The notes beneath the pieces were generated by a model. It saw only the letters and a program-made list of their open reading frames with translations. It was not told where the DNA came from and did no database searches. Below are positions 16,284-26,234 of a stretch of DNA of 26,870 bases, piece by piece; the stretch's first letter is position 1; every line of letters begins with the position of its first letter. Position numbers and translations under genes: made by a program. Location: positions 17,090 through 43,959 of IMG/VR virus record IMGVR_UViG_3300038652_000269; one strand, written 5' to 3'. Source of the stretch: a virus.

Positions 16284-16772
16284 ATGAAAACAAATCTAGT
16301 TATTGATGTTATTATACACTATAGTATAACACTGCAAGGGAAACTCTGTTGGGGGTGCGCCCCTGCTTCTACTATAGGGGAAATGCATGCTATTATTGAA
16401 AAGAATAATGAGGACGGGGGTAGTCTTCGCTATATAGAGGATAAAAGCCTTCGGACAATCATAGATAAATATGTGGAAGTTATGCGGCGGGGTGGGTACT
16501 CCTTCTCTAGCAAGGATGGTGTCTTCTTCTACTATATAGACAACAAGCCTCATCACTATATAGGAGAAGCGCCCTCTGCTATGGACGGAAAGCCTATTTA
16601 TGGGCATGAGCTGCGATGGGCCGTGCAATCCCATATCCAATCTTTAAAAGGCAAAGAGCGTTTTGATGAGTTACTCTATATAGAGGAGAAGTATGCTACC
16701 TTTACAGGAGTACACATCCCTATAGGCCAAACAACTATATATGATTATCTACCAGGTGGTTCTAATGCCTGA
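16284..16772 (+). CDS. Hypothetical protein, 162 aa
   Basis: Opens with MKTNLVIDVIIHYSI, has a CWGC motif near residue 22, several Tyr-Ile dipeptides encoded by TATATA (part of the CTATATAG cluster), and GVHIPIGQTTIYDYL at the end. ATAGGGGG lies upstream with another CTATATAG at 16264. Unknown fold and function. It overlaps the next gene by 8 bases. Confidence 0.6.
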   Translation: MKTNLVIDVIIHYSITLQGKLCWGCAPASTIGEMHAIIEKNNEDGGSLRYIEDKSLRTIIDKYVEVMRRGGYSFSSKDGVFFYYIDNKPHHYIGEAPSAMDGKPIYGHELRWAVQSHIQSLKGKERFDELLYIEEKYATFTGVHIPIGQTTIYDYLPGGSNA

Positions 16773-16998
16773 AAAGGGTGAGCTATGTGTTATAGGGGGA
16801 AAGCATGCACATAGGTGTTTCTATACTCCTATAGTAAACAAAGTGTGTGTTTTCTCTAGAGAGACTGGCAACACGTATCAGGTATTTCTCAATTCAACTT
16901 TTGAAAGTTGGAACATACATCCTGAGGATTTCATCCCTATTGATATGAACAATGATCATGCTGTTAAGCTATTAAATAAAGAGGAGGACAATCTATGA
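16765..16998 (+). CDS. NNxxAL-family paralog, 77 aa
   Basis: ATG 16765 behind AGGTGG (5 bases) is chosen; ATG 16741 lies deeper in the previous gene. The sequence opens MPEKGELCVIGGKHA and ends PIDMNNDHAVKLLNKEE, matching the terminal NNxx(A/G)(L/V)xLLxEE motif of the genes at 17798, 18160, 18458, 18681, 25188 and 25474. Divergent in the middle. It overlaps the next gene by 4 bases (ATGA). Function unknown. Confidence 0.6.
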   Translation: MPEKGELCVIGGKHAHRCFYTPIVNKVCVFSRETGNTYQVFLNSTFESWNIHPEDFIPIDMNNDHAVKLLNKEEDNL

Positions 16999-17153
16999 AT
17001 CCATTAGGTAATCAGAAGGCCCCTCTCTATATAGGGGAAAACATCCTCTCACTAGGGGAATACTATATAGTAGGAACCGCCTCTTATCATAAGGATTGGT
17101 ATGAGCCTGTCTACGTACTTCCTATCAACGATGGGCTTAAGGCCGCTGAGTAA
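16995..17153 (+). CDS. Hypothetical protein, 52 aa
   Basis: ATG overlaps the previous stop (ATGA) behind GAGGAGG. Product begins MNPLGNQKAPLYIGENILSL, has a beta-rich middle and ends DGLKAAE. Two CTATATAG palindromes (17027, 17063) lie in it, both encoding Tyr-Ile. Part of the CTATATAG-dense operon. No known family. Confidence 0.55.
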   Translation: MNPLGNQKAPLYIGENILSLGEYYIVGTASYHKDWYEPVYVLPINDGLKAAE

Positions 17154-17525
17154 GTGGCCGCTATCAGCTCAAGTAATATGAGACACGGGAGAGACTTATC
17201 TATGCATACTAGCCTGAAATACACCTCTCAAAGGGGGTAAGGCTAGTCCACCCTGAAATTAGGGGGGTTTTGTGGAGGTCTGTGTCTCCCTTTTCGTCTG
17301 TCTAAGTACTGGTATGACAGCATTCTTAAGGTGTAGCTATAAATATGTATATGAAGTTGAAAGTAGTACTCTCTATTAACTAATGAGGAGCATAAATATA
17401 GATCAATTTATACTTCCTCTTATTAATACGGGGTAATACATTAAATTACACCACGTTTAAGTAAATTTATTGAAAGTTATGTTATTATAAATAAGATTAG
17501 TTATAGAAGGGAGGTAAAGGATGTA
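17154..17525 (+). ncRNA. Structured non-coding stretch with three-way junction
   Basis: GGGAGA+GAC (17187-17195) pairs with GTC+TCTCCC (17278-17290), enclosing two perfect or near-perfect arms: ACTAGCC (17208-17214)/GGCTAGT (17241-17247), and CCAC (17248-17251)/GTGG (17272-17275) with inner CCT/AGG. TTTT follows the closing helix. A second long hairpin runs 17375-17427: ATTAA, GAGGA, ATAAAT against ATTTAT, TCCTC, TTAAT. The layout suggests a folded RNA; I do not recognise a known class. No gene is supported here. Confidence 0.4.
17470..17497 (+). promoter_or_regulatory. Possible promoter before 17526
   Basis: TTGAAA (17470-17475), a 16-base spacer and TAAGAT (17492-17497) resemble sigma-A boxes (5/6 and 4/6). 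It sits directly upstream of the 17526 ribosome binding site. Confidence 0.3.
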
Positions 17526-17684
17526 GTGGTAGTTGATTATATTACTAAGAAAGATACTCACTCTATAGGAGATACTCTTACTCTCTATAGTGAAAGTGAG
17601 TCCTATATAGGAGAAGTAATAGATGTAGCTATCTATCCTAATATGGTAGATAGAGAGTTAGTCTATATAGAGATAGATATGTAG
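17526..17684 (+). CDS. Hypothetical protein, GTG start, 52 aa
   Basis: GTG 17526 lies 11 bases after GGGAGG; no ATG fits in frame. The product begins MVVDYITKKDTHSIGDTLTL and ends VYIEIDM, likely beta-rich. It contains two CTATATAG copies (17603, 17663) as Tyr-Ile codons. It precedes the NNxxAL array. The stop is followed, in the same frame, by a 22-codon open stretch that looks like a relict membrane segment. Confidence 0.5.
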   Translation: MVVDYITKKDTHSIGDTLTLYSESESYIGEVIDVAIYPNMVDRELVYIEIDM

Positions 17685-17750
17685 TGTTATAGTCTTATAG
17701 GAGGAGTGTCTTTCTATATAGTATTTCTTCTCTATATAGTATTATATTAG
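17685..17750 (+). pseudogene. Relict membrane-peptide segment
   Basis: In frame with the preceding stop, the sequence reads CYSLIGGVSFYIVFLLYIVL before a TAG at 17748. This resembles the C-terminus of the 32-aa micro-protein at 18027 (GVFIYIVLS). AGGAGG abuts a GTG at 17706, too close for good initiation. Probably a remnant of a duplicated micro-membrane gene; a 14-aa peptide is the alternative. Confidence 0.3.
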
Positions 17751-17797
17751 AGGTTAGGTTTTTGATTTGCGGCGCCCAGTAATATGGAGGTGTTTGT

Positions 17798-18025
17798 TTG
17801 ACATATGGACCTGTTGATAGTAAAGGGAATTTATATAAGGAGGGTGCTTTATACAAAGCACATGGTGTAATTTTTAAAATGGTTCGTATGCATTATCCCT
17901 ATGCTGATGTAGGTTTTGGTAGTAGTGGGCGGACTGCGGAAGTATCTGTTATAAGTGGTTGGGAGTGTATTGCACCAAACGTAGATAATAACGAAGAGGG
18001 TCTTTATCTCTTAGAGGAGGATTAA
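17798..18025 (+). CDS. NNxxAL-family paralog, intact type member, 75 aa
   Basis: ORF opens with TTG at 17798, behind TATGGAGG. Product reads DSKGNLYKEGALYK, a beta-rich middle, GWECIAP and the terminal NNEEGLYLLEED. This is the shared family pattern: DxxGNxYxxGxxY..., GW, NNxxALxLLxEE. It is the best intact example. A GCGGCGCCCAGTAA leader resembles those before 18160 and 19588. A micro-membrane gene follows directly. Family unrecognised; short beta-barrel binding fold is a guess. Confidence 0.65.
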   Translation: MTYGPVDSKGNLYKEGALYKAHGVIFKMVRMHYPYADVGFGSSGRTAEVSVISGWECIAPNVDNNEEGLYLLEED

Positions 18026-18026
18026 T

Positions 18027-18125
18027 ATGCACAAAGAATGGTATGATATAGATATGATAGATATGCTTCTCTGTATGTTAGGTGTTTCTACTATAGGTGT
18101 ATTTATTTATATAGTATTATCTTAG
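18027..18125 (+). CDS. Membrane micro-protein, 32 aa
   Basis: AGGAGG is 6 bases before ATG. The N-terminal third is charged (MHKEWYDIDMID), the remainder one transmembrane helix (LLCMLGVSTIGVFIYIVLS). It follows the 17798 gene with one base between, and similar hydrophobic micro-proteins follow other family members (17685, 19060, 19395), suggesting a duplicated two-gene cassette. Confidence 0.5.
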   Translation: MHKEWYDIDMIDMLLCMLGVSTIGVFIYIVLS

Positions 18126-18159
18126 TATTCTCGCCGCCCATCAGTAAGGAGTGATTTGT

Positions 18160-18388
18160 ATGATGAACTTAGAAGTTGATAGTCAAGGTAATCCTTATAA
18201 GGTTGGTTCTATTTACTATGGACATAAGCATTACCTTAAAATAATAGCAATCACTTTTACTAATATAGATGTTCTTCCTCTTGGTAAAAAAAAGAGTTAT
18301 TAGATTATCTATTATGGATGGTTGGGTGCCTGAATGTCCTGAAGTGTCTAACAATCAAGATGCGCTTTATTTATTGAAGGAGGAATAG
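18160..18388 (+). pseudogene. NNxxAL-family paralog broken by a frameshift in A8
   Basis: The frame from ATG 18160 (AAGGAG 8 bases upstream) reads MMNLEVDSQGNPYKVGSIYY and stops at 18301-18303. The rest of the family pattern continues in the +1 frame to a TAG at 18386: RVIRLSIMDGWVPE and NNQDALYLLKEE. The two parts meet at an A8 run (18286-18293). Removing one A restores a protein of about 75 aa, equal to the 17798 paralog. Options: genuine decay, polymerase or ribosome slippage on A8, or a sequencing error. Confidence 0.7.
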
Positions 18389-18389
18389 T

Positions 18390-18461
18390 ATGAATAAGCA
18401 AGTATATTTTTGTAGACGTATTGATGAATATAAATATGATGGTGTAGGAGTGATCTTGTGA
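18390..18461 (+). CDS. Possible 23-aa micro-gene
   Basis: ATG 18390 follows AAGGAGG and lies one base after the stop of the broken paralog. Product begins MNKQVYFCRRIDEYKYDG. Its TGA overlaps the next GTG. The strong site supports translation; it may be a leader that couples to 18458. No hydrophobic stretch. Confidence 0.35.
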   Translation: MNKQVYFCRRIDEYKYDGVGVIL

Positions 18462-18679
18462 CTAGATTATTAGAAGATGGTACTCCTGCCTGGGCTTTAA
18501 ATGTTATAACAGAAAAATATCGAGAAGGCTTCTATTCTTATGATATTGGTCGCCTTGGTGCTGAAAGGCATTGGATTTATTCTAATGGTATAGAAGATAG
18601 AAGGCGAGTTAAAGGGAGTACTGTTAGACTCCTTCCTTCTAATAATAGTGAAGCTTTGTATTTTTTAAGGGAGGAATAG
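18458..18679 (+). CDS. NNxxAL-family paralog, GTG start, 73 aa
   Basis: GTG 18458 overlaps the preceding micro-gene; GTAGGAGTG lies upstream. Product has a divergent start (MTRLLEDGTPAWAL), a segment GFYSYDIGRLGAE and the family ending NNSEALYFLREE. Intact. Followed one base later by the next family gene. Divergence among the members is high in the middle and low at the C-terminal motif. Confidence 0.6.
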   Translation: MTRLLEDGTPAWALNVITEKYREGFYSYDIGRLGAERHWIYSNGIEDRRRVKGSTVRLLPSNNSEALYFLREE

Positions 18680-18680
18680 T

Positions 18681-19057
18681 ATGAGTATTGAATCGTTTAT
18701 AAGAAATAACCATCCTGATATTTTAGAACAGTATGAACGTTATATAGATAGGTCTAATTTTCCTGCCGTCGGCTCTACCGTCATTCCATTAGTTGATGGA
18801 TATGGAACACGTCTTGTTGATGGTCGAGGTAGCTCTATGACTGTATTAGAATATACAGACAATATAAAAAGGATCATATTTATCGTTTGTATGATACTCA
18901 TTTTATCTTACTTGATATTAAAGATAATAATGCGACAGTTAAATTAATACAACAAAATAGAACTACAGTTTTAATTTTAACTAATGGCTGGGATTATGTT
19001 TCCCCTGTTTTTTCCACTAATCAAGATGCTCTATCTCTTATGGAAGAAGGTGAGTAA
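18681..19057 (+). pseudogene. NNxxAL-family paralog with an extended N-terminus, frameshifted
   Basis: The frame from ATG 18681 (GGGAGG upstream) reads MSIESFIRNNHPDILEQYER, then DGYGTRLVDGRG, and would switch at about 18861-18872 (AATATAAAAAGG) to the -1 frame, which holds DHIYRLYDTHFILLDI, LTNGWDYVSP and TNQDALSLMEEGE to a TAA at 19055-19057. Left in its own frame it ends at 18947 in an artefactual hydrophobic tail. Joined, it would be about 124 aa. The joined part aligns by eye with 17798. Slippage on AAA or decay or sequencing error are the options. Confidence 0.65.
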
Positions 19058-19059
19058 CT

Positions 19060-19212
19060 TTGTTATTAACTGTAGTTATTCTTTATATAATATCTGCTAT
19101 TATTCACATTTATCTTTGGGACAATTTGCCGAGGATAAGTTTTGTTTTATTTTCTATATCTACGCTTCTTATTTTTTTAGTTACATTAGCTCAAATAATA
19201 ATTTTATTTTAA
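19060..19212 (+). CDS. Membrane micro-protein, TTG start, 50 aa
   Basis: TTG 19060 follows GAAGGTGAG and lies two bases after the stop of the previous frame. Two hydrophobic stretches (residues 1-18 and 26-50) around a polar turn WDNLPRIS give a helical hairpin. A frame at 18984 crosses it but has no ribosome site. Same position after an NNxxAL member as other micro-membrane genes. Confidence 0.5.
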   Translation: MLLTVVILYIISAIIHIYLWDNLPRISFVLFSISTLLIFLVTLAQIIILF

Positions 19213-19225
19213 GGAGGTATATATT

Positions 19226-19393
19226 TTGTCTCAAAAGAAATTAATCGAAGGCAAGGTTGTAATGGCTAGTTATGGTCAACCTGGTGTTCTTGAAATTCGC
19301 ACGCCGACTGTTGAGGGTGATAATTCTTATTTTGCTAAAGAACTCTCTAAATATATGGGCAAGAAAGTTACTATTTATATAGAGGAGGAATAA
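19226..19393 (+). CDS. Hypothetical protein, TTG start, 55 aa
   Basis: AAGGAGG precedes TTG 19226 by 8 bases. Product begins MSQKKLIEGKVVMASYGQPG and ends KKVTIYIEEE, beta-rich with a Gly-rich turn. No Cys. Possibly a small beta-barrel; no family. A frameshifted membrane gene follows after one base. Confidence 0.55.
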   Translation: MSQKKLIEGKVVMASYGQPGVLEIRTPTVEGDNSYFAKELSKYMGKKVTIYIEEE

Positions 19394-19394
19394 T

Positions 19395-19551
19395 ATGATT
19401 AGCTTTCTTACTGCTATTGTCATGTGGGGGTTTAGCCTTTTTCTTTTTCTATACTAATGAAAATTATTTAGCTGGTATTATATATATTCTTATTATTGGT
19501 ACCATAACTATTTCTATTTTATTAGAAGAAATAATTAAAAAAATGAAGTAA
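19395..19551 (+). pseudogene. Micro-membrane gene with a frameshift at a T-rich run
   Basis: ATG 19395 behind GAGGAGG opens MISFLTAIVMWGFSLFLF and stops at 19455-19457. In the +1 frame, from about 19447, the sequence continues YTNENYLAGIIYILIIGTIT to a TAA at 19549-19551, a coherent second transmembrane helix with a charged tail (EEIIKKMK). The switch lies at a T5 run (19438-19448 region). One extra T explains it. A 20-aa product from the first frame alone is the alternative. Confidence 0.5.
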
Positions 19552-19587
19552 AATTTTCGCTGACTTTTTTCAGTAAGGAGGAATACT

Positions 19588-19812
19588 ATGTGCTCTGATC
19601 CTATTCAAGTAAGAGATTTTGAATGTTGGAATATGTCTCTTTCTATGTTGTTTGGTAAAACTCCTAAAGTTACGATGTCTTGTGGCAAATGTAGGCATAT
19701 TTGGAGTAAACGTTTTACTGGAATGGATTTTAGGAATGGTTATAAAAATCGTCCAGTTTCTATCTGCCCACGTTGCAATACTTCTAATTATGTACCAATG
19801 GCTATTAGTTAA
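19588..19812 (+). CDS. Zinc-ribbon protein, 74 aa
   Basis: CGKC near residue 32 and CPRC near residue 62 form a zinc ribbon with a basic middle (SKRFTGMDFRNGYKNRP). ATG 19588 behind AAGGAGG. Upstream lies CTGA, CTTTTT, TCAG, a small hairpin, then the CAGTAAGGAG leader seen before 17798 and 18160. Nucleic-acid binding is likely for this fold type; partner unknown. Confidence 0.65.
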   Translation: MCSDPIQVRDFECWNMSLSMLFGKTPKVTMSCGKCRHIWSKRFTGMDFRNGYKNRPVSICPRCNTSNYVPMAIS

Positions 19813-19843
19813 ATGATCTTGATTTTTTGATCATGCATGGAAG

Positions 19844-19870
19844 GCTTTCTACCCCTTTATAGGGGGAAGG
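19844..19870 (+). terminator. Hairpin with CCCCT/AGGGG stem
   Basis: CCCCT (19852-19856), loop TTAT, AGGGG (19861-19865), extended by CTT/AAG. No strong U tract. A second small hairpin TGATC/GATCA lies just before it (19814-19834). Confidence 0.35.
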
Positions 19871-19913
19871 TATTTGGGTATATAGTTGATTGTATAAGTG
19901 AGGAGGAATTTTT

Positions 19914-20042
19914 ATGAAAACTGCAAGTTTTATAAGCACGAAGGGGTACCGTAATTTTATCTCTAATAATCCAGATATAGAAATTCATTCTACTTTTGCT
20001 TTTGAAAAAGAAATTATTCTTACATATAGTGGCACAATTTAA
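19914..20042 (+). CDS. Hypothetical protein, 42 aa
   Basis: GAGGAGG precedes ATG 19914 by 7-8 bases. Product begins MKTASFISTKGYRNFISNN, is soluble and short. No motif. May be a fragment, but the site is strong and there is no sign of a broken neighbour. Confidence 0.4.
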   Translation: MKTASFISTKGYRNFISNNPDIEIHSTFAFEKEIILTYSGTI

Positions 20043-20083
20043 TAATATCTATATGTAAACTATAGATTAAAAGGGGGATTTGT

Positions 20084-20635
20084 ATGTTTAATAAATTATT
20101 TGGCAAAAAAGAAACTACAGAACAAGGGGGCGATCTTCATATGACAACACATCTATTTAACCACGCACTAGGTATAAAAGCTCGTGATATTATTACAGGT
20201 TGCGAGGGTATAATTGTTACACGTAATGATCATATCTCTGGTTGTGCTCATTATGGTTTAGCACAACCAGAGACAGAGGCTGGTGTTATTCCGCCGACTG
20301 AATTCTTTGATGAAGGTCGTATTGAATTTGTTGGTAAAGGTGTATCTGATCGTGTTGAAGATCCAGACGCTACATTCAAGTATGAGGCTGGTCTTTTAGC
20401 AAAAGATAAAATTACTGGATTTAAAGGTAAGATTGGTGTGCGTGGTCAGACATTCAATAGTGCTGATAATTATGCTTTAATACCTGATGTTGATGAAAAG
20501 GGGAAACTACAAGAAGCAATGTTCTTTGATGAGGGTCGTCTTGAAATATTAGATGAAGGCATTACAGCTAAAGAAGTGGAATCATCTCAACGTGGACCAA
20601 TTTTTAGTCGTGACACACAACAGGGACTTTACTAA
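20084..20635 (+). CDS. Tandem-domain phage-type protein, 183 aa
   Basis: Two copies of one domain of about 60 residues. The first, near 31-85, has DIITGCEGIIVTRNDHISGC, PTEFFDEGRIEF; the second, near 105-160, has DKITGFKGKIGVRGQTFNSA, AMFFDEGRLEI. Single-domain versions are common in phages, without known function; the repeated ITGFxG...FDEGRLE pattern is what I recognise. ATG 20084 follows AAAGGGGG. An in-frame ATG at 20141 follows AAGGGGG, so a form without the 19-residue charged start could be made. Confidence 0.65.
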   Translation: MFNKLFGKKETTEQGGDLHMTTHLFNHALGIKARDIITGCEGIIVTRNDHISGCAHYGLAQPETEAGVIPPTEFFDEGRIEFVGKGVSDRVEDPDATFKYEAGLLAKDKITGFKGKIGVRGQTFNSADNYALIPDVDEKGKLQEAMFFDEGRLEILDEGITAKEVESSQRGPIFSRDTQQGLY

Positions 20636-20640
20636 GAATT

Positions 20641-20757
20641 ATGGTTATTGAAATTGGTGATAATTTGATGGATTTAATTAGTGGGATTTTTGTTTTATGT
20701 TTATTTGTATATATTATTTATTTATTTGTATATATTATTTATTTATTTTTAAGATAA
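20641..20757 (+). CDS. Repeat-built membrane micro-protein, 38 aa
   Basis: From ATG 20641 (or ATG 20668 behind GGTGAT) the frame reads MVIEIGDNLMDLISGIF and then two exact 7-residue repeats LFVYIIY, ending LFLR. The repeats are encoded by a 21-bp tandem DNA repeat (20701-20742). One long hydrophobic helix. The site is weak, but the codon-phase repeat supports translation. Confidence 0.4.
   Translation: MVIEIGDNLMDLISGIFVLCLFVYIIYLFVYIIYLFLR
20701..20749. repeat. 21-bp tandem repeat
   Basis: Two exact copies of a 21-bp unit (20701-20721 and 20722-20742) beginning TTATTTGTATATATT, plus a partial third. The unit is a multiple of three and lies in frame within the 20641 micro-protein. Confidence 0.75.
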
Positions 20758-21210
20758 TACCTTGGTGGAACTAACCAGCCGTATAAATGGAGACTGAGAT
20801 GAACGTCTGGCATCCCGTATCACTTCAGGCATATATAATGAGGTTAATCCTAACTCCTCTTGTATATTAGTAACATTAGGTTTGGTCTTTTTCATATTGG
20901 GCACCAGTAATTGAGGCGGTATGACCGTAGTCTTTTGTCGTTTAGACTCTGCATTAAATAAAGCGACTAACTATCAGTCTATTAATTACTATGAGAGGGG
21001 ATACTCTGAAAATTAATACACACTCTCTGAAGACCGTGGGTATATCCCGCCTTCGGCTAGTAAGAGAAGATAGTGATTCTTATTATTTAGGGAAGGATTT
21101 GCGACCTTCCAGCATAGTTGGTAAACTCCTATATGTTGTTGCGACGTGATAGGACGCATAGGGCAAGTGTGATGGCTTGCCCCTTGCCTAAGTAATAAGA
21201 AAAAATAGTT
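20758..21210 (+). ncRNA. Large structured non-coding region, about 450 nt
   Basis: No supported gene. Many local stems are visible: GAGG/CCTC with TTA/TAA (20840-20859); CGGT/ACCG (20917-20927); GTCG/CGAC with TTT/AAA (20937-20967); TATTAATT (20980-20987)/AATTAATA (21011-21018) enclosing AGAG/CTCT; GGGT/CCC near 21037; GGAAGG/CCTTCC (21091-21110); GGGCAAG (21161-21167)/CTTGCCC (21176-21182). The density and order suggest a folded RNA, and ornate long RNAs (ROOL, GOLLD) are known from phages, but no homology is claimed. A minus-strand frame at 21013-21342 is unlikely to be coding. Confidence 0.4.
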
Positions 21211-21222
21211 AGGAGTTTTCAT

Positions 21223-21663
21223 ATGATTTATTATACAAAAGGTGATATATTTGATAGTAAAGCACAAGCTATTGTTAATCCAGTAAATTGCGTTGGTGTT
21301 ATGGGTGCAGGACTTGCTAAACAATTTAAGAATCGCTGTCATCGCAGTATGTTCTTTCGTTATAAAACTTTATGCGATAAAGGTGAATTACGCCCTGGCA
21401 CTCTTATGTATTTTCAAGATAATGATAAAATGATTGTCAATTTTCCTACAAAAGATGACTGGCGTAATCCAAGTAAGTTGAAGTGGATAGAAGACGGTCT
21501 TATTAATTTTGTTAAAAACTATAAAGCTGTTGGCATTAAGTCTATTGCTTTTCCGCCTCTTGGTGCTAGACTTGGTGGATTAGATTGGAATGATGTGGAT
21601 CGGTTAATGCTTAAATATCTTGCTGATTTACCTATCGATGTATATATATATCAACCAAAGTGA
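21223..21663 (+). CDS. DarG/TARG1-type macrodomain protein, 146 aa
   Basis: Clear macrodomain of the DarG-like class. Hallmarks are GDIFDSKAQAIVNPVNCVGV (6-25), the ADP-ribose loop VGVMGAGLAKQFK (24-36), NFPTKDDWR (72-80), and IAFPPLGARLGGLDWNDV (104-121). The usual GCGLGGL loop reads GARLGGL here. These proteins bind ADP-ribose or remove it from DNA; DarG reverses the DNA ADP-ribosylation by DarT. The protein is one domain only and no DarT gene is next to it. An orphan DarG-like domain on a phage could protect its DNA from host DarTG; that is inference. ATG 21223 follows TAGGAG. Confidence 0.9.
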   Translation: MIYYTKGDIFDSKAQAIVNPVNCVGVMGAGLAKQFKNRCHRSMFFRYKTLCDKGELRPGTLMYFQDNDKMIVNFPTKDDWRNPSKLKWIEDGLINFVKNYKAVGIKSIAFPPLGARLGGLDWNDVDRLMLKYLADLPIDVYIYQPK

Positions 21664-21664
21664 T

Positions 21665-21678
21665 AGGGCTTTTGCCCT
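21665..21678 (+). terminator. Short hairpin after the macrodomain gene
   Basis: AGGGC (21665-21669), loop TTTT, GCCCT (21674-21678). No U tract. Probably a transcript-stabilising or attenuating hairpin. Confidence 0.35.
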
Positions 21679-21700
21679 GTCCTTCTATGGAGGCTTGTTA

Positions 21701-21976
21701 ATGAAAATTACATTAAATCATGATATTCAGTATTATAAAGGTATTAAATTACAACTTATTAAAAGAAGTTATCCTAGAAATAATAAGGCAAAGCGTTTTA
21801 CCATAGGTGGAACGAATCAGAATGTATGGATTCCTAATAAGCATCTAGAACCTAATGGAATCATTATTGATGGTATGGATATAGATTATGTGTTCAGAAG
21901 AGCTCAGCGTCAGTTAGAGCTTGCTGGTTATACTGATCCTATCATTGGCATTAAAAGGCGTAGTGTAACTAATTAA
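21701..21976 (+). CDS. Hypothetical basic protein, 91 aa
   Basis: ATG 21701 follows TATGGAGG; an in-frame earlier ATG at 21620 lies inside the macrodomain gene. Basic, beta-rich start (MKITLNHDIQYYKGIKLQLI), then NVWIPNKHLEPNG and a helix DYVFRRAQRQLELAGY. Could bind nucleic acid by charge; no family recognised. Sits between the macrodomain gene and the 22000 gene. Confidence 0.6.
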   Translation: MKITLNHDIQYYKGIKLQLIKRSYPRNNKAKRFTIGGTNQNVWIPNKHLEPNGIIIDGMDIDYVFRRAQRQLELAGYTDPIIGIKRRSVTN

Positions 21977-21999
21977 CTCCAAGTCAGTATTTTGATATC

Positions 22000-22698
22000 T
22001 TGAAAGATAAGAAAAACAAGATAGATGACGATGTTTTAACAAATATTTATGACAATTGTCTATCATTACTTAGTAAATATAAAATGACAGATCAACATAT
22101 AACTATGCGTAAACTTATTTTTCATTTAGAAACAATTGAAAAAGAACGAGAAATTGTAAAGATGGGCATTAATACATTTGTTTATCAGGACGAAGTAACT
22201 CACTTTATTAAGGATGTAGCAGACGATGTTGTTAAAATTATTGAGCTACATAAGTATGAGCGTGAGATTCCTGATGATATTGCTAAAATAGTTAACCAAG
22301 TAAAAGATAATTTTGACGAATTTTATATTGTCTTCACAGATTATACAGGTGAAGCAGAGCGTCAGGTTCAAAAAGAGCGTCGTGATAAAGATCCTATTTT
22401 ATTTGGTGCTTTCCAAGATGAAGTAACATCTACAGTTATTGATAGATTCTATTTCTTGGGTGACTGGGAAGATGAATATTGTGATTTAACTTTAGACAAA
22501 ATGGTCAATGCCGTTAAAGCAAAAGAAAAGCGTAATATTGAGCACACCATTAAAAAACCTGAAGATATTGAAGAATTAAAAACACAACTTGCTCTCTTAA
22601 GTCGCAACCCAAGAAATACGAGCTTCATAGTTAGCAATGAGAAGAAGGTTTCATTCTTCAAGAAGATTAAATCATTTTTAACAATGCATAAGAAATAA
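22000..22698 (+). CDS. Hypothetical helical protein, 232 aa
   Basis: The frame opens at TTG 22000 with no clear ribosome site; ATG 22084 is another possible start. The product is strongly charged and helical, with KDVADDVVKIIELHKYERE, an acidic middle and a basic tail ending SFLTMHKK. Not recognised. It overlaps the next gene by one base (TAATG). Confidence 0.55.
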   Translation: MKDKKNKIDDDVLTNIYDNCLSLLSKYKMTDQHITMRKLIFHLETIEKEREIVKMGINTFVYQDEVTHFIKDVADDVVKIIELHKYEREIPDDIAKIVNQVKDNFDEFYIVFTDYTGEAERQVQKERRDKDPILFGAFQDEVTSTVIDRFYFLGDWEDEYCDLTLDKMVNAVKAKEKRNIEHTIKKPEDIEELKTQLALLSRNPRNTSFIVSNEKKVSFFKKIKSFLTMHKK

Positions 22699-23093
22699 TG
22701 TTACATGATAATATTGATTTAACAGAGAATCGTATCTTTGGTGCACTACCAGTTCAATCATCTAGAATAAATCATCGCTCTCATTTTGACTTAGATAGAG
22801 AACTGATTGTGTTATCTACTTCATTAAATCATGAGCAGTTGATGCCTTGGGAAAGACGCAAGTTACATCATGACTGTTATTCTACTATTATTCCTACAGG
22901 TTCTGTTAAAGATATTCGGAAACAAAAGTGGTACCATGAAGGAGAAATGGGTGAATCCTGCCACTGTTGTGGTGTTGATTTAACAAGAATTCCTTATCAA
23001 GCAATTTATTCTTTATGTAGATATTGTAATGATCAAATGGAAATGCAAACACATAAAACTTTGTATACAGAACAATTGGATACAATGCGTTAA
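22698..23093 (+). CDS. Hypothetical protein with CxxC pairs, 131 aa
   Basis: Start overlaps the previous stop by one base. The C-terminal part has CHCCG near residue 93 and CRYC near 115, a zinc-ribbon-like pair; the N-terminal two thirds carry His-rich helical segments (NHRSHFD, RRKLHHD). HNH-like features were looked for and not convincing. Metal-binding, nucleic-acid-related role is inferred. Confidence 0.6.
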   Translation: MLHDNIDLTENRIFGALPVQSSRINHRSHFDLDRELIVLSTSLNHEQLMPWERRKLHHDCYSTIIPTGSVKDIRKQKWYHEGEMGESCHCCGVDLTRIPYQAIYSLCRYCNDQMEMQTHKTLYTEQLDTMR

Positions 23094-23104
23094 GGAGTGG
23101 TTGT

Positions 23105-23263
23105 GTGTACTATGAAGATAAAAAAATAATTATAGAAAAGCTACAAGCGGATTCATGTCGTCTTCTCCTTAAGAACACGGGTTTGGATAATGAAGGTGAG
23201 ATATTTAAACTCATGTTGGAAAAAGCATTCTATGAGGGGTATATGTATCAAAAACTGAACTAA
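23105..23263 (+). CDS. Hypothetical protein, GTG start, 52 aa
   Basis: GTG 23105 lies 7 bases after AAGGAG. The product is one or two amphipathic helices, MYYEDKKIIIEKLQADSCRL and LMLEKAFYEGYMYQKLN. No motif. Continues the operon from 22698. Confidence 0.5.
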   Translation: MYYEDKKIIIEKLQADSCRLLLKNTGLDNEGEIFKLMLEKAFYEGYMYQKLN

Positions 23264-23282
23264 TAAAGGAGGTTTTTTTATT

Positions 23283-23444
23283 TTGCATATTCGTATTAAG
23301 TTTTTTCAAGGTTCTATTGATTCTATTGAAAAGAGTTTTAACACATGGTCTAAAAATAAATATGTAAGTGAAACAACACTGCATTTAAAACGTAATGCAG
23401 GACAAGAACATGCTATTTTGAAAGTTCTTTATGGTGACAAATAG
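23283..23444 (+). CDS. Hypothetical protein, TTG start, 53 aa
   Basis: TTG 23283 follows AAAGGAGG at 10-11 bases. Basic, starts MHIRIKFFQGSIDSIEKSF, beta-alpha-beta by eye, ends ILKVLYGDK. No known family. Just upstream of the SLOG gene. Confidence 0.5.
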   Translation: MHIRIKFFQGSIDSIEKSFNTWSKNKYVSETTLHLKRNAGQEHAILKVLYGDK

Positions 23445-23456
23445 GAGGAATATGTT

Positions 23457-23813
23457 GTGAAGGTTATCGTTGCTGGTGGCAGAGAATTTAATAATTATAA
23501 TCTATTAGTTGATTCATTAGATAAGGCTTTTCAAAAACTTAATAAAAATAAATTAATCATTGTTTCAGGTGGAGCAAAAGGTGCCGATGCATTAGGTGAA
23601 AAATATGCTAAGGACAGAGGATATCCATTAGAGATATTTCCTGCTGACTGGCAACTCCATGGGAAGGCGGCGGGACCTATCCGTAATAAACAAATGGCAG
23701 AAAATGCTGATGCGCTTGTGGCATTTGATTCTGGTGGGCCTGGTACACGCAATATGATTAAAACTGCAAAAGAATTAAATTTAAAAGTAAGAGTAGTTGA
23801 TGCCCGTGGGTAG
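23457..23813 (+). CDS. YspA-type SLOG nucleotide-binding protein (DUF2493), 118 aa
   Basis: Contains the family's hallmarks: VIVAGGREFNNYNLLVDSLD (3-22), IVSGGAKGADALGEKYA (36-52), PADWQLHGKAAGPIRNKQM (61-79), and DSGGPGTRNMI (91-101). This Rossmann-like fold (SLOG, DprA/LOG-related) binds nucleotide-derived ligands; YspA-type members are common in phages without settled roles. GTG 23457 follows AGGAGG. Its proximity to an ADP-ribose-binding macrodomain suggests nucleotide signalling or counter-defence, an inference. The next gene overlaps its end. Confidence 0.9.
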   Translation: MKVIVAGGREFNNYNLLVDSLDKAFQKLNKNKLIIVSGGAKGADALGEKYAKDRGYPLEIFPADWQLHGKAAGPIRNKQMAENADALVAFDSGGPGTRNMIKTAKELNLKVRVVDARG

Positions 23814-23958
23814 TGTATTTTTTATACTTATTGGCATTATACTAGGTATAGCTATTATACCAATTGTTGGACCGTTAGTACTACCTGTTCTTACAATTGT
23901 TGGGGCAGGTTTTATTATATATAAAATAATAAGTTATTTTGGAGGAGATCGATTATGA
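23800..23958 (+). CDS. Membrane micro-protein, 52 aa
   Basis: ATG 23800 overlaps the SLOG gene by 14 bases. Hydrophobic from about residue 4 to 45 (SVFFILIGIILGIAIIPIVG, then LPVLTIVGAGFII), likely two helices with a Pro-Gly turn, and a short tail FGGDRL. TGA overlaps the next ATG (ATGA). Site is weak, so it may depend on coupling. Confidence 0.5.
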   Translation: MPVGSVFFILIGIILGIAIIPIVGPLVLPVLTIVGAGFIIYKIISYFGGDRL

Positions 23959-24395
23959 ACATATCTTTTAAATTAGGAAAAGTAAATATCCCAGTTACAG
24001 AAGAACATAATATTGAAATTAAAGATTTAAAAATTGCTGTTGAAGATTATAACTTAATGGAAGGCTTAGAAATAATGAAAGAAATTCCTTTCATATTAGC
24101 TGACCTACAAGCTGTTTTACATCAAAGCGAGTCTTTAACTGGTTGTGATTTTTCTGATAAAATGGTTGATAAAAATGAAGAAGAGGAAGAAAGTGTTCAT
24201 GAAGCCCCAGTTGATTTATTTGATCTTCTTGCTAAAGCAACTAATTATCAAAAACAGCAGGAAGAAGAAAAAGGATCGTCAAAGTCTTTAGCTGACTTAT
24301 TAATAAGCCATGGGAAATCACCTAGTCAAATTAAACTTATAGGTGGCGGTTCTTTAGCTGATTTATTAAAAGGCTTATCTAAAGACGAACAATAA
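23955..24395 (+). CDS. Hypothetical acidic protein, 146 aa
   Basis: GGAGG lies 8-9 bases upstream of ATG 23955. Residues 1-65 look folded (MNISFKLGKVNIPVTEEHN); 75-112 are Glu/Gln-rich; the C-terminus has two similar pieces SLADLLISHGKSPS and SLADLLKGLSKDEQ, a short internal repeat (SLADLL). No known family. Last gene before a strong terminator. Confidence 0.6.
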   Translation: MNISFKLGKVNIPVTEEHNIEIKDLKIAVEDYNLMEGLEIMKEIPFILADLQAVLHQSESLTGCDFSDKMVDKNEEEEESVHEAPVDLFDLLAKATNYQKQQEEEKGSSKSLADLLISHGKSPSQIKLIGGGSLADLLKGLSKDEQ

Positions 24396-24427
24396 AGGAG
24401 GTGAGTGAGTTGTAAGAAGGTTCTGCG

Positions 24428-24473
24428 GGTTGTATTAAGTATTCTTTGAATGCTATTACAACCTGTTTTTTAT
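24428..24473 (+). terminator. Rho-independent terminator
   Basis: GGTTGTA (24428-24434) and TACAACC (24457-24463) close a stem, with GTATTC/GAATGC continuing inside around TTT. TGTTTTTTATT follows. Ends the 20-24.4 kb operon. Confidence 0.75.
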
Positions 24474-24542
24474 TATGCTGCTTGTTGCTACTGTCTATCA
24501 AAAGTTATTAACTAAACTAAAAATGAATTGGAGAGATTTAAA

Positions 24543-25028
24543 ATGACTAAAACAACTGTACAAGAAGAAACTAAAACTAAAATGGGTGCTAAAAATGAAA
24601 ATCGTACTAGTGCTGGAGATGTAAACAAAACAGAGCAACAGCCTGTTACCACACGTCGCCTAGCAATGGATAACCTACGTGATTCATTCTGGTATCTTAA
24701 GCATGCAGATGAACTTGAAAAGGTAACTGCTGAATCTGATAATGCTGATCTAGGTATTAAACGAATTGGCGTATTCCCACCATCTGAGGCACAAGCTAAT
24801 AATGCTGTAATTGCATCAATTCAGCTTGAAACTATTGTTGGTAATATCCGTGGTATTCAAGTGAAAGAATCTAAGAATACTGCTGGAGCTCTTTACCTTC
24901 AGACTGGTTCTAAGAATATTGCAAGAGAAGGTCAGCAAGCTAAGTGGTTTAATGAGGTTACACTTGAAAGAGTTGTAACAGCTCAAATTCTTAGCTATGT
25001 TGATAGTCTTTTAGAAGAAGTTAAATAA
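24543..25028 (+). CDS. SpoVG-like protein, 161 aa
   Basis: ATG 24543 follows GGAGAG; a GTG/ATG earlier in the leader is not needed. Residues 1-40 are Lys/Thr/Asn-rich. From about 78 the order LGIKRIGVFPPSEAQ, AVIASIQLETIVGNIRGIQV, TAGALYLQTGSKN, and a C-terminal helix TAQILSYVDSLLEEV follows the SpoVG pattern (beta strands with V..I.V...NG.f..MPS... then helix). SpoVG binds RNA/DNA and regulates genes in Firmicutes. It is flanked by strong terminators on both sides, so it is a single-gene unit. The 478-aa protein (12794) shares KMGAxxNE and WYL...LGIK motifs. Assignment is by pattern. Confidence 0.55.
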   Translation: MTKTTVQEETKTKMGAKNENRTSAGDVNKTEQQPVTTRRLAMDNLRDSFWYLKHADELEKVTAESDNADLGIKRIGVFPPSEAQANNAVIASIQLETIVGNIRGIQVKESKNTAGALYLQTGSKNIAREGQQAKWFNEVTLERVVTAQILSYVDSLLEEVK

Positions 25029-25047
25029 CTTTAAAAAAGTGATTAAG

Positions 25048-25082
25048 AAGGGACACTCATTGAGTTGAGATGTCCCTTTTTT
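25048..25082 (+). terminator. Strong rho-independent terminator
   Basis: AAGGGACA (25048-25055) and TGTCCCTT (25071-25078) form a perfect 8-bp stem followed by a T6 run. It closes the SpoVG-like gene. Confidence 0.85.
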
Positions 25083-25134
25083 ATGTGGGGCTCACTGTTA
25101 CAGCTGTGCTACGCTTGTTCCATATTGGGCTATA

Positions 25135-25162
25135 TTGGGCTATATTTTTTCATTAATATAAT
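25135..25162 (+). promoter_or_regulatory. Likely sigma-A promoter for the 25188 operon
   Basis: A perfect TATAAT (25157-25162) with a 16-base spacer and TTGGGC (25135-25140). The TATATTGGGC unit is tandemly repeated just upstream (25123-25140), so a second -35-like copy exists. It lies after the terminator at 25082 and 26 bases before ATG 25188. Confidence 0.55.
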
Positions 25163-25187
25163 CAATAGTTTAAAGGAGTGTTTATTA

Positions 25188-25448
25188 ATGCAGGTTATTC
25201 CAAAAAATAGTCATATATATATTGGACCACATCCACAAGTTTGTGCTTCAGCAGTTGGGGTGGTTTTTTCCTTAAAACATCAAATAGATTTAACAAAAAG
25301 TAAGGAAGCTACTGGTTATATTATAGAAAGCCCTAATGGTTGGGGCGTATCTACTATAAACCATGAAATAGATTTAAAGTTTGATCATATTGTAAAACTT
25401 GCGGAAGTAAATAATAATGAATTTTTACAGTACTTAAACGAAGATTAA
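25188..25448 (+). CDS. NNxxAL-family-like protein, 86 aa
   Basis: ATG 25188 follows AAAGGAG. The C-terminus VNNNEFLQYLNED matches the family ending NNxxALxLLxEE loosely, and the middle has ESPNGWGVSTI with the family's GW. The start MQVIPKNSHIYIGPHPQ differs from the array members. Located about 6 kb from the array; may be a transposed or older paralog. A longer frame from 25065 has no site. Confidence 0.5.
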   Translation: MQVIPKNSHIYIGPHPQVCASAVGVVFSLKHQIDLTKSKEATGYIIESPNGWGVSTINHEIDLKFDHIVKLAEVNNNEFLQYLNED

Positions 25449-25473
25449 CCATATAATATAAAGGAGTGTTACA

Positions 25474-25746
25474 ATGGTTAGTATTGATCAGATCAAAGAA
25501 GGTTTAATACTTGAACTTAAACATAGCAAGCCTGTAAAAAAAACATGGTGGGGGCATAAGATTAAAATATTGTCCATAAATAATACTTCACATAATATAC
25601 GCATTGAAGCAGAGGTTTTAACTGCTCCTTGTGATCTTTAACATAAAATAGGTATTAGTATTTTTACATCAATTGATAATCTTATTTTTCCTGGTTCTCG
25701 TGCAAAAAATAATTATAAAGCTTTAGAGTTACTCAATAATGATTAA
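25474..25746 (+). pseudogene. NNxxAL-family paralog with an in-frame TAA
   Basis: ATG 25474 (AAGGAG upstream) opens MVSIDQIKEGLILELKHSKP, stops at TAA 25639-25641 and continues open in the same frame to 25746 with FPGSRAKNNYKALELLNND, the family ending. Reading through gives 90 residues. The same-frame continuation with the intact C-terminal motif shows a single nonsense change. Readthrough of TAA or recent decay are the options; sequence error of one base is possible. Confidence 0.65.
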
Positions 25747-25772: not shown

Positions 25773-26234
25773 ATGATAAAAATTTATACACTTCATAGCA
25801 ATAGTTCTTCTAGGAAGGCAATTAAATGGCTTGATGAGAACAACCTCAATTATAGTGACCAGCGTATCAATATGCTTCCACCTAACTTACAACAAATAAA
25901 AGAAATCTTATCACTTACTGAAAATGGTACAGATGATATTATTGCTTCAGCATCTATAACTTATGGCAAATTAATTGAAGAGGGAATAGACTTTGATAGT
26001 CTCACTTTACTTGAGTTATCTTATTTAATAAAAGAAAATCCTACTGTATTGAAAGGACCTATTATTATTAGTGACGATAAGCTACAAATTGGTTTCAATC
26101 ATTTTGAGATGAGTCAATTTATACCTCGTGCTAAGAAGATGTCTATTTACTCTAAACAATTAGAAGATCTACGTTTCGAAGAAGATCAAAGACTTGAAAG
26201 AGGAGAGTTGATTGGCGGGGGGTATAGGATTTGA
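25773..26234 (+). CDS. Spx-like RNA polymerase-binding protein lacking the redox CxxC, 153 aa
   Basis: Spx/ArsC fold: MIKIYTLHSNSSSRKAIKWL at the start corresponds to Spx residues 1-20, with N10 and S13 where Spx has C10 and C13. The RNA polymerase alpha-CTD contact is kept (ENGTDDII, G52 equals Spx G52). The RR pair before PIII reads KG (about 94-95). Length exceeds Spx (131 aa) by a C-terminal extension ending RGELIGGGYRI. ATG 25773 follows GAAAGGAA. It should bind the alpha subunit without redox control, possibly to redirect host transcription; this is inference. Confidence 0.85.
   Translation: MIKIYTLHSNSSSRKAIKWLDENNLNYSDQRINMLPPNLQQIKEILSLTENGTDDIIASASITYGKLIEEGIDFDSLTLLELSYLIKENPTVLKGPIIISDDKLQIGFNHFEMSQFIPRAKKMSIYSKQLEDLRFEEDQRLERGELIGGGYRI

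Follow-up and report, generated by a model that had tools for sequence, protein, structure and literature searches.

Short C-terminal helices or peptides bring cargo to HK97-fold shells, as with the P22-type scaffold and the cargo peptides of encapsulins. Cargo work with P22 is reported in PMC9962691. The internal proteins of T4 (IPI-III and Alt) are diverse and fast-changing, and all that they have in common is a short terminal capsid targeting sequence (PMC3012670), an N-terminal tag of 10 to 20 residues that is cleaved by the prohead protease (PMC5694885) and is proven in packaging. The phage proteins described here resemble the T4 internal proteins in that otherwise different proteins share a short terminal tag, and they resemble P22-type scaffold and encapsulin cargo peptides in that this element is C-terminal; unlike the T4 targeting sequence, however, their C-terminal tail is known from sequence alone. 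Two of them have predicted structures of the same fold class as SH3/KOW-like small phage proteins. No such tail is described in the literature searched, whose coverage lay outside most subscription journals.

The window analyzed here (26,870 nucleotides) comprises bases 17090 to 43959 of a 43,959-base phage record in IMG/VR (IMGVR_UViG_3300038652_000269, here G000). It contains seven plus-strand genes with similar endings, all at the places listed in an earlier note on this DNA, and the element that unites them is a C-terminal 9-mer, N-N-x-x-A-L-x-L-L, carried on several body families. The intact genes encode proteins of 77 aa (16765..16998; tail NNDHAVKLL), 75 aa (17798..18025; start codon TTG, tail NNEEGLYLL), 73 aa (18458..18679; start codon GTG, tail NNSEALYFL), and 86 aa (25188..25448; tail NNNEFLQYL). 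Two further features that the earlier note ascribed to the type members are less widespread than the tail. The segment DxxGNxYxxG is present at 17798 (DSKGNLYKEG) and 18160 (DSQGNPYKVG), is only weak at 18681, and recurs in a homologue from another phage, G020 (DSQGNRFKVG); a GW before the end occurs in four of the seven (17798, 18160, 18681, and 25188).

Three copies are broken, as had been proposed. The gene at 18160..18388 (tail NNQDALYLL), a type member, loses its frame at a run of eight A near 18286, leaving a 5′ part (18160-18303, with the DSQGNPYKVG segment) and a 3′ part in the +1 frame (18269-18388) that bears the tail. That at 18681..19057 (tail TNQDALSLM) loses its frame at a run of five A near 18868, and its 5′ part (18681-18947) is followed by a 3′ part in the −1 frame, reaching 19057, with NGW and the tail. 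The gene at 25474..25746 is interrupted by an in-frame TAA (25639-25641), and the part downstream ends in NNYKALELL. Compared with relatives, no other conserved gene of G000 has a split frame, and we therefore favor real decay over general sequencing error, on the evidence of one metagenome contig. Because the tail past each of the three breaks is still conserved, the breaks, if real, are recent. Hydrophobic micro-proteins that lack the tail directly follow two of the seven genes (32 aa at 18027..18125, behind 17798; 50 aa at 19060..19212, behind 18681; both plus strand), not four as previously counted. Tail genes in relatives show no clear enrichment for a following small membrane gene, and we rejected the micro-membrane genes as tail partners on that ground. 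By eye, similar leaders precede small genes of the array at 17771-17790, 18130-18155, and 19560-19585 (GCCCAGTAATATGGAG, GCCCATCAGTAAGGAG, and TTTTCAGTAAGGAGG), and CTATATAG-like palindromes are frequent between 16.7 and 18.1 kb. A promoter scan of the array gave no excess over shuffles.

The tail genes lie in the non-structural half of G000 on the plus strand, while the structural genes in the remainder of the record, including those for capsid, portal-like, and scaffold/protease-like proteins, are on the minus strand. The G000 capsid protein is 80% identical to that of the 216-kb Bacillus phage KLEB27-3, with which G000 also has part of its gene neighborhood in common, 76 to 77% identical to those of two Bacillaceae phage-plasmids (pN497-ZHONG and pAD3), and 74 to 87% identical to those of other IMG/VR records. 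A scan with a matrix of the window tails found no tail arrays in KLEB27-3 or pN497-ZHONG, and six relatives, KLEB27-3 among them, are without such arrays. Only three distinct phages carry the tail (G000, G013, and G020), with no isolate known among these, and the GTDB genomes searched included none with the capsid protein or the family of the 25188 protein. Elsewhere in this set of records, the terminase large subunit of locus L005 (10353-13313, minus strand) has what looks by eye like an intein, placed at the Walker A motif with GRRIGK before it and TWTMAAHM after it, and a G022 protein begins in the same way.

Within the phages that carry it, the tail is common. About 33 proteins encoded by the 251-kb G013 genome end in such a tail, as do 14 of the 207 proteins in the 120 kb of G020 that were read first, in the latter nearly all at the very C terminus and against an expectation of 0.00 drawn from internal pseudo-ends. 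(Genes of relatives were called by a simple in-house procedure.) A matrix built from the seven window tails alone, at a threshold score of ≥10 and with expectations taken from internal pseudo-ends, found 13 of 365 proteins in G013 (0.2 expected) and 7 of 305 in G020 (0.1 expected), which places the endings far above chance; the six relatives gave 0 to 2 matches. De novo motif searching on C termini recovered the tail in G013 and G020 only. An expectation-maximization search yields some best motif for any genome and was judged against internal controls; coherent tails stood well above these controls in G013 and G020 only, and a motif excess in W03 was rejected as a tail because it was incoherent.

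With the tails removed, the bodies split into several families in profile searches. The observations of the earlier note largely hold, but the single small-protein family that it described is replaced by several families sharing a tail. Broken copies were read across their breaks solely to build search profiles. A profile of the 17798, 18160, and 18681 bodies finds a G020 protein (DSQGNRFKVG...AGWE; E = 5.6e-4), and by this match the three form one family with a G020 relative. With the 25188 body as query, three G013 proteins were recovered (E = 6e-8 to 2e-5), a second family that is present in G013 and G020. For the 16765 body, matches are weak, the two best both being tail-bearing G013 proteins (VGxKHA...WxI...DxIP), and the bodies of 18458 and 25474 had no significant match in this search and are orphans. 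Window members had no significant match in Pfam and none below E = 0.01 in PHROGs. As sole query, 17798 had no relative among the viral contigs, the annotated phages, and the 23 relatives searched, and a search with the 17798/G020 alignment matched only four contigs, each with the identical G020 protein. One alignment of all seven endings and bodies (A1) was too loose for use; two others (A3 and A4) found only G013 and locus L047, which has no tail genes and was discarded as a chance match.

Divergence of the bodies is fast, as had been suggested: homology between bodies can scarcely be made out from one phage to another even where the capsid proteins are 75 to 81% identical. Duplication is also apparent, with tail genes standing in tandem more often than expected (adjacent pairs, 16 versus 3.0 expected in G013 and 6 versus 0.7 in G020). 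The tails themselves have a phage-specific consensus, roughly NNxxALYLLxEE in G000, SNxEAKxLLSKEW in G020, and NNExLLxxLxDxE in G013, and similarity within a phage exceeds that between phages (0 of 2,000 label shuffles). Inside G020, the tails of the two body families shared with that phage agree at seven of nine positions, while tails on the same body family in G000 and G020 agree at only three. Conserved Asn, Ala, and Leu residues of the tail are spelled by many synonymous codons, and therefore selection acts at the protein level, and the tail core is not explained by a signal in the DNA or by recent gene conversion.

AlphaFold models of 17798 and 25188 each show a five-strand barrel (pLDDT 80 and 84, respectively) followed by a short helix in the tail that is detached from the barrel and of lower confidence (pLDDT about 54 to 62); the alignments behind both models are shallow, at five rows. 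The best PDB folds for both are KOW, Spt5/NusG, Tudor, and PWWP, all weak matches with E above 0.05, and the predicted SH3/KOW-like assignment is evidence of fold class only. Some G013 and G020 bodies match DUF4314, phrog_9469, phrog_11307, and phrog_2431 weakly to moderately (phrog_11307, E = 9e-7), but these matches do not cover the tail, and window members match none of the four significantly.

Because the tail sits on different bodies, is alike within a phage but differs between phages, is kept at the protein level, and is predicted to form a separate helix, we think it fairly probable that it is a short C-terminal docking tag by which many small phage proteins meet one common partner; that the tail docks at all, that its partner is a single one, and what this partner is are what we infer here. 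The tag, N-N-x-x-(A/L)-L-x-x-L, would be an amphipathic helix with an Asn cap that forms the very end of numerous small proteins. The bodies of these proteins would differ, most of them being SH3/KOW-like barrels, and their genes stand in tandem in an accessory part of the genome that would serve host takeover and counter-defense. If one partner reads all the tails of one phage, this shared reading would let the tails change in concert toward a version peculiar to that phage, even as the bodies diverge, and the bodies would supply different activities that the tag gathers at one place.

Many of the bodies may instead be very diverged paralogues of one barrel, the tail being merely the slowest-evolving part. 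Barrel and helix would then descend together by tandem duplication, with the best-kept tail completing the fold or a dimer interface. Both models fall in one fold class, many tail proteins of G013 and G020 read like barrels, and the tandem arrangement of the genes suits such a history. We nevertheless consider common descent a possible but doubtful account. The tail also ends a G013 HIRAN-domain protein (Pfam E = 2e-10), a 225-aa protein, a 51-aa open reading frame, and a Tyr/Ser-rich 62-aa protein, the short frames being non-barrel; the helix is of low confidence and separate in both models; and descent alone does not account for tails that agree better inside one phage than across one body family.

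If the tail is a docking tag, the leading candidate for the gathering place, advanced tentatively, is the procapsid, where tagged proteins might be packaged and later injected in the manner of T4 internal proteins; alternatively, it could be a complex for replication or transcription, of either the phage or the host. Capsid loading nevertheless seems to us unlikely; in this form of the explanation the tail would imitate the shell-contacting C-terminal helix of the scaffold/prohead-protease protein, so that tail proteins are packed in the head, ejected with the DNA, and act at once in the new host. The precedent of T4, whose diverse internal proteins have nothing but a capsid targeting sequence in common (PMC3012670), and the ejection of many head proteins by giant phages (PMC5694885) speak for it. 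Scaffold/protease proteins of this phage group also have a similar C-terminal helix, and in two tail-less relatives this ending is the top tail-matrix match of the whole proteome (TNNEEALISLL in G012, SNEDALISLL in W02). This likeness, noticed after the fact, is clear in those relatives but weak in the tail-bearing phages, where the scaffold ending ranks 10 of 68 (G000), 60 of 365 (G013), and 25 of 305 (G020); moreover, the scaffold ending does not mirror the phage-specific features of the tail, and the tail genes are for the most part on the other strand from the structural genes.

A feature of the DNA, with the ending shaped by the Shine-Dalgarno sequence that serves the following gene or by a recombination site for shuffling cassettes, is a very improbable origin for the tail. 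The last residues (EED, KEE, REE) do fall on this Shine-Dalgarno sequence, the codons of the final three or four (EED, KEE, KEW) reading GAGGAGG or AAGGAGTGG immediately ahead of the following start, and in G013 GGAG or GAGG precedes the stop in 15 of 33 tails; the NNxxALxLL core, however, lies upstream of the Shine-Dalgarno sequence, and the ribosome-binding-site explanation covers the last residues only and is largely refuted for the core by the synonymous codons of its conserved residues. Known bacterial ssrA-type C-degrons end in small hydrophobic residues. By analogy the tail might make early proteins short-lived, as its extreme C-terminal position on many small accessory-region proteins would allow, but it can hardly be a degradation signal, given that the tails end acidic or in EW, EY, or DYE and differ between phages, as a host-read degron should not.

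Returning to the docking tag, we searched for its receptor by phylogenetic profile, taking proteins that both complete tail-bearing genomes (G013 and G020) encode and that none of six relatives without tails has; this left 20 candidates and singled out no partner among them. Two of these, a von Willebrand A-like protein and a 559-aa protein with a Gly-rich end near the arrays, are possible tail partners (G013:24426-25199 with G020:153809-154600, and G013:228427-230106 with G020:138617-140386). Directly behind window gene 24528 or its homologue, each of the three phages has a tail gene; in KLEB27-3 the gene in that position encodes a membrane protein with no tail.

Several neighbors of the tail genes were identified in the window. 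A macro-domain protein (21223-21663) strongly resembles the DarTG antitoxin DarG (PADLOC E = 3e-59; Pfam Macro E = 7e-14) and likely serves, judging by this similarity, as counter-defense against DNA ADP-ribosylation. An ArsC/Spx-family protein (25773-26234) is encoded directly behind the 25474 tail gene and has homologues in G020, G012, G016, G022, and KLEB27-3, the last annotated as an Spx regulator. The DarG-like and ArsC/Spx-family genes fit the idea of a host-interaction region, in keeping with the role in host interaction suggested earlier. The window also encodes a YspA/cpYpsA-related SLOG-family protein (23457-23813; Pfam YAcAr E = 3e-20) and a 183-aa protein (20084-20635) of two similar halves (GxEGIIV...YGLAQPE...FDEGRIE), which has 39% identity to a counterpart in G013 and matches no Pfam family.

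In its fullest form, which we offer as a tentative and on balance doubtful proposal, the docking tag would amount to a targeting code written by the phage at the C terminus. Each phage would tune its own helical tag and place it on tens of different small effectors, which one receptor, most likely the procapsid, collects; giant Bacillus-type phages would then have a C-terminal equivalent of the sequence that targets T4 proteins to the capsid. Should the tail prove to be a targeting tag, about 50 uncharacterized proteins in three phages would be marked as acting at one place, further such proteins could be found by their ending alone, and a ready peptide would be at hand for isolating the partner. 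For some of the early region that lacks annotation in giant phages, destination could then take the place of fold as a basis for sorting.
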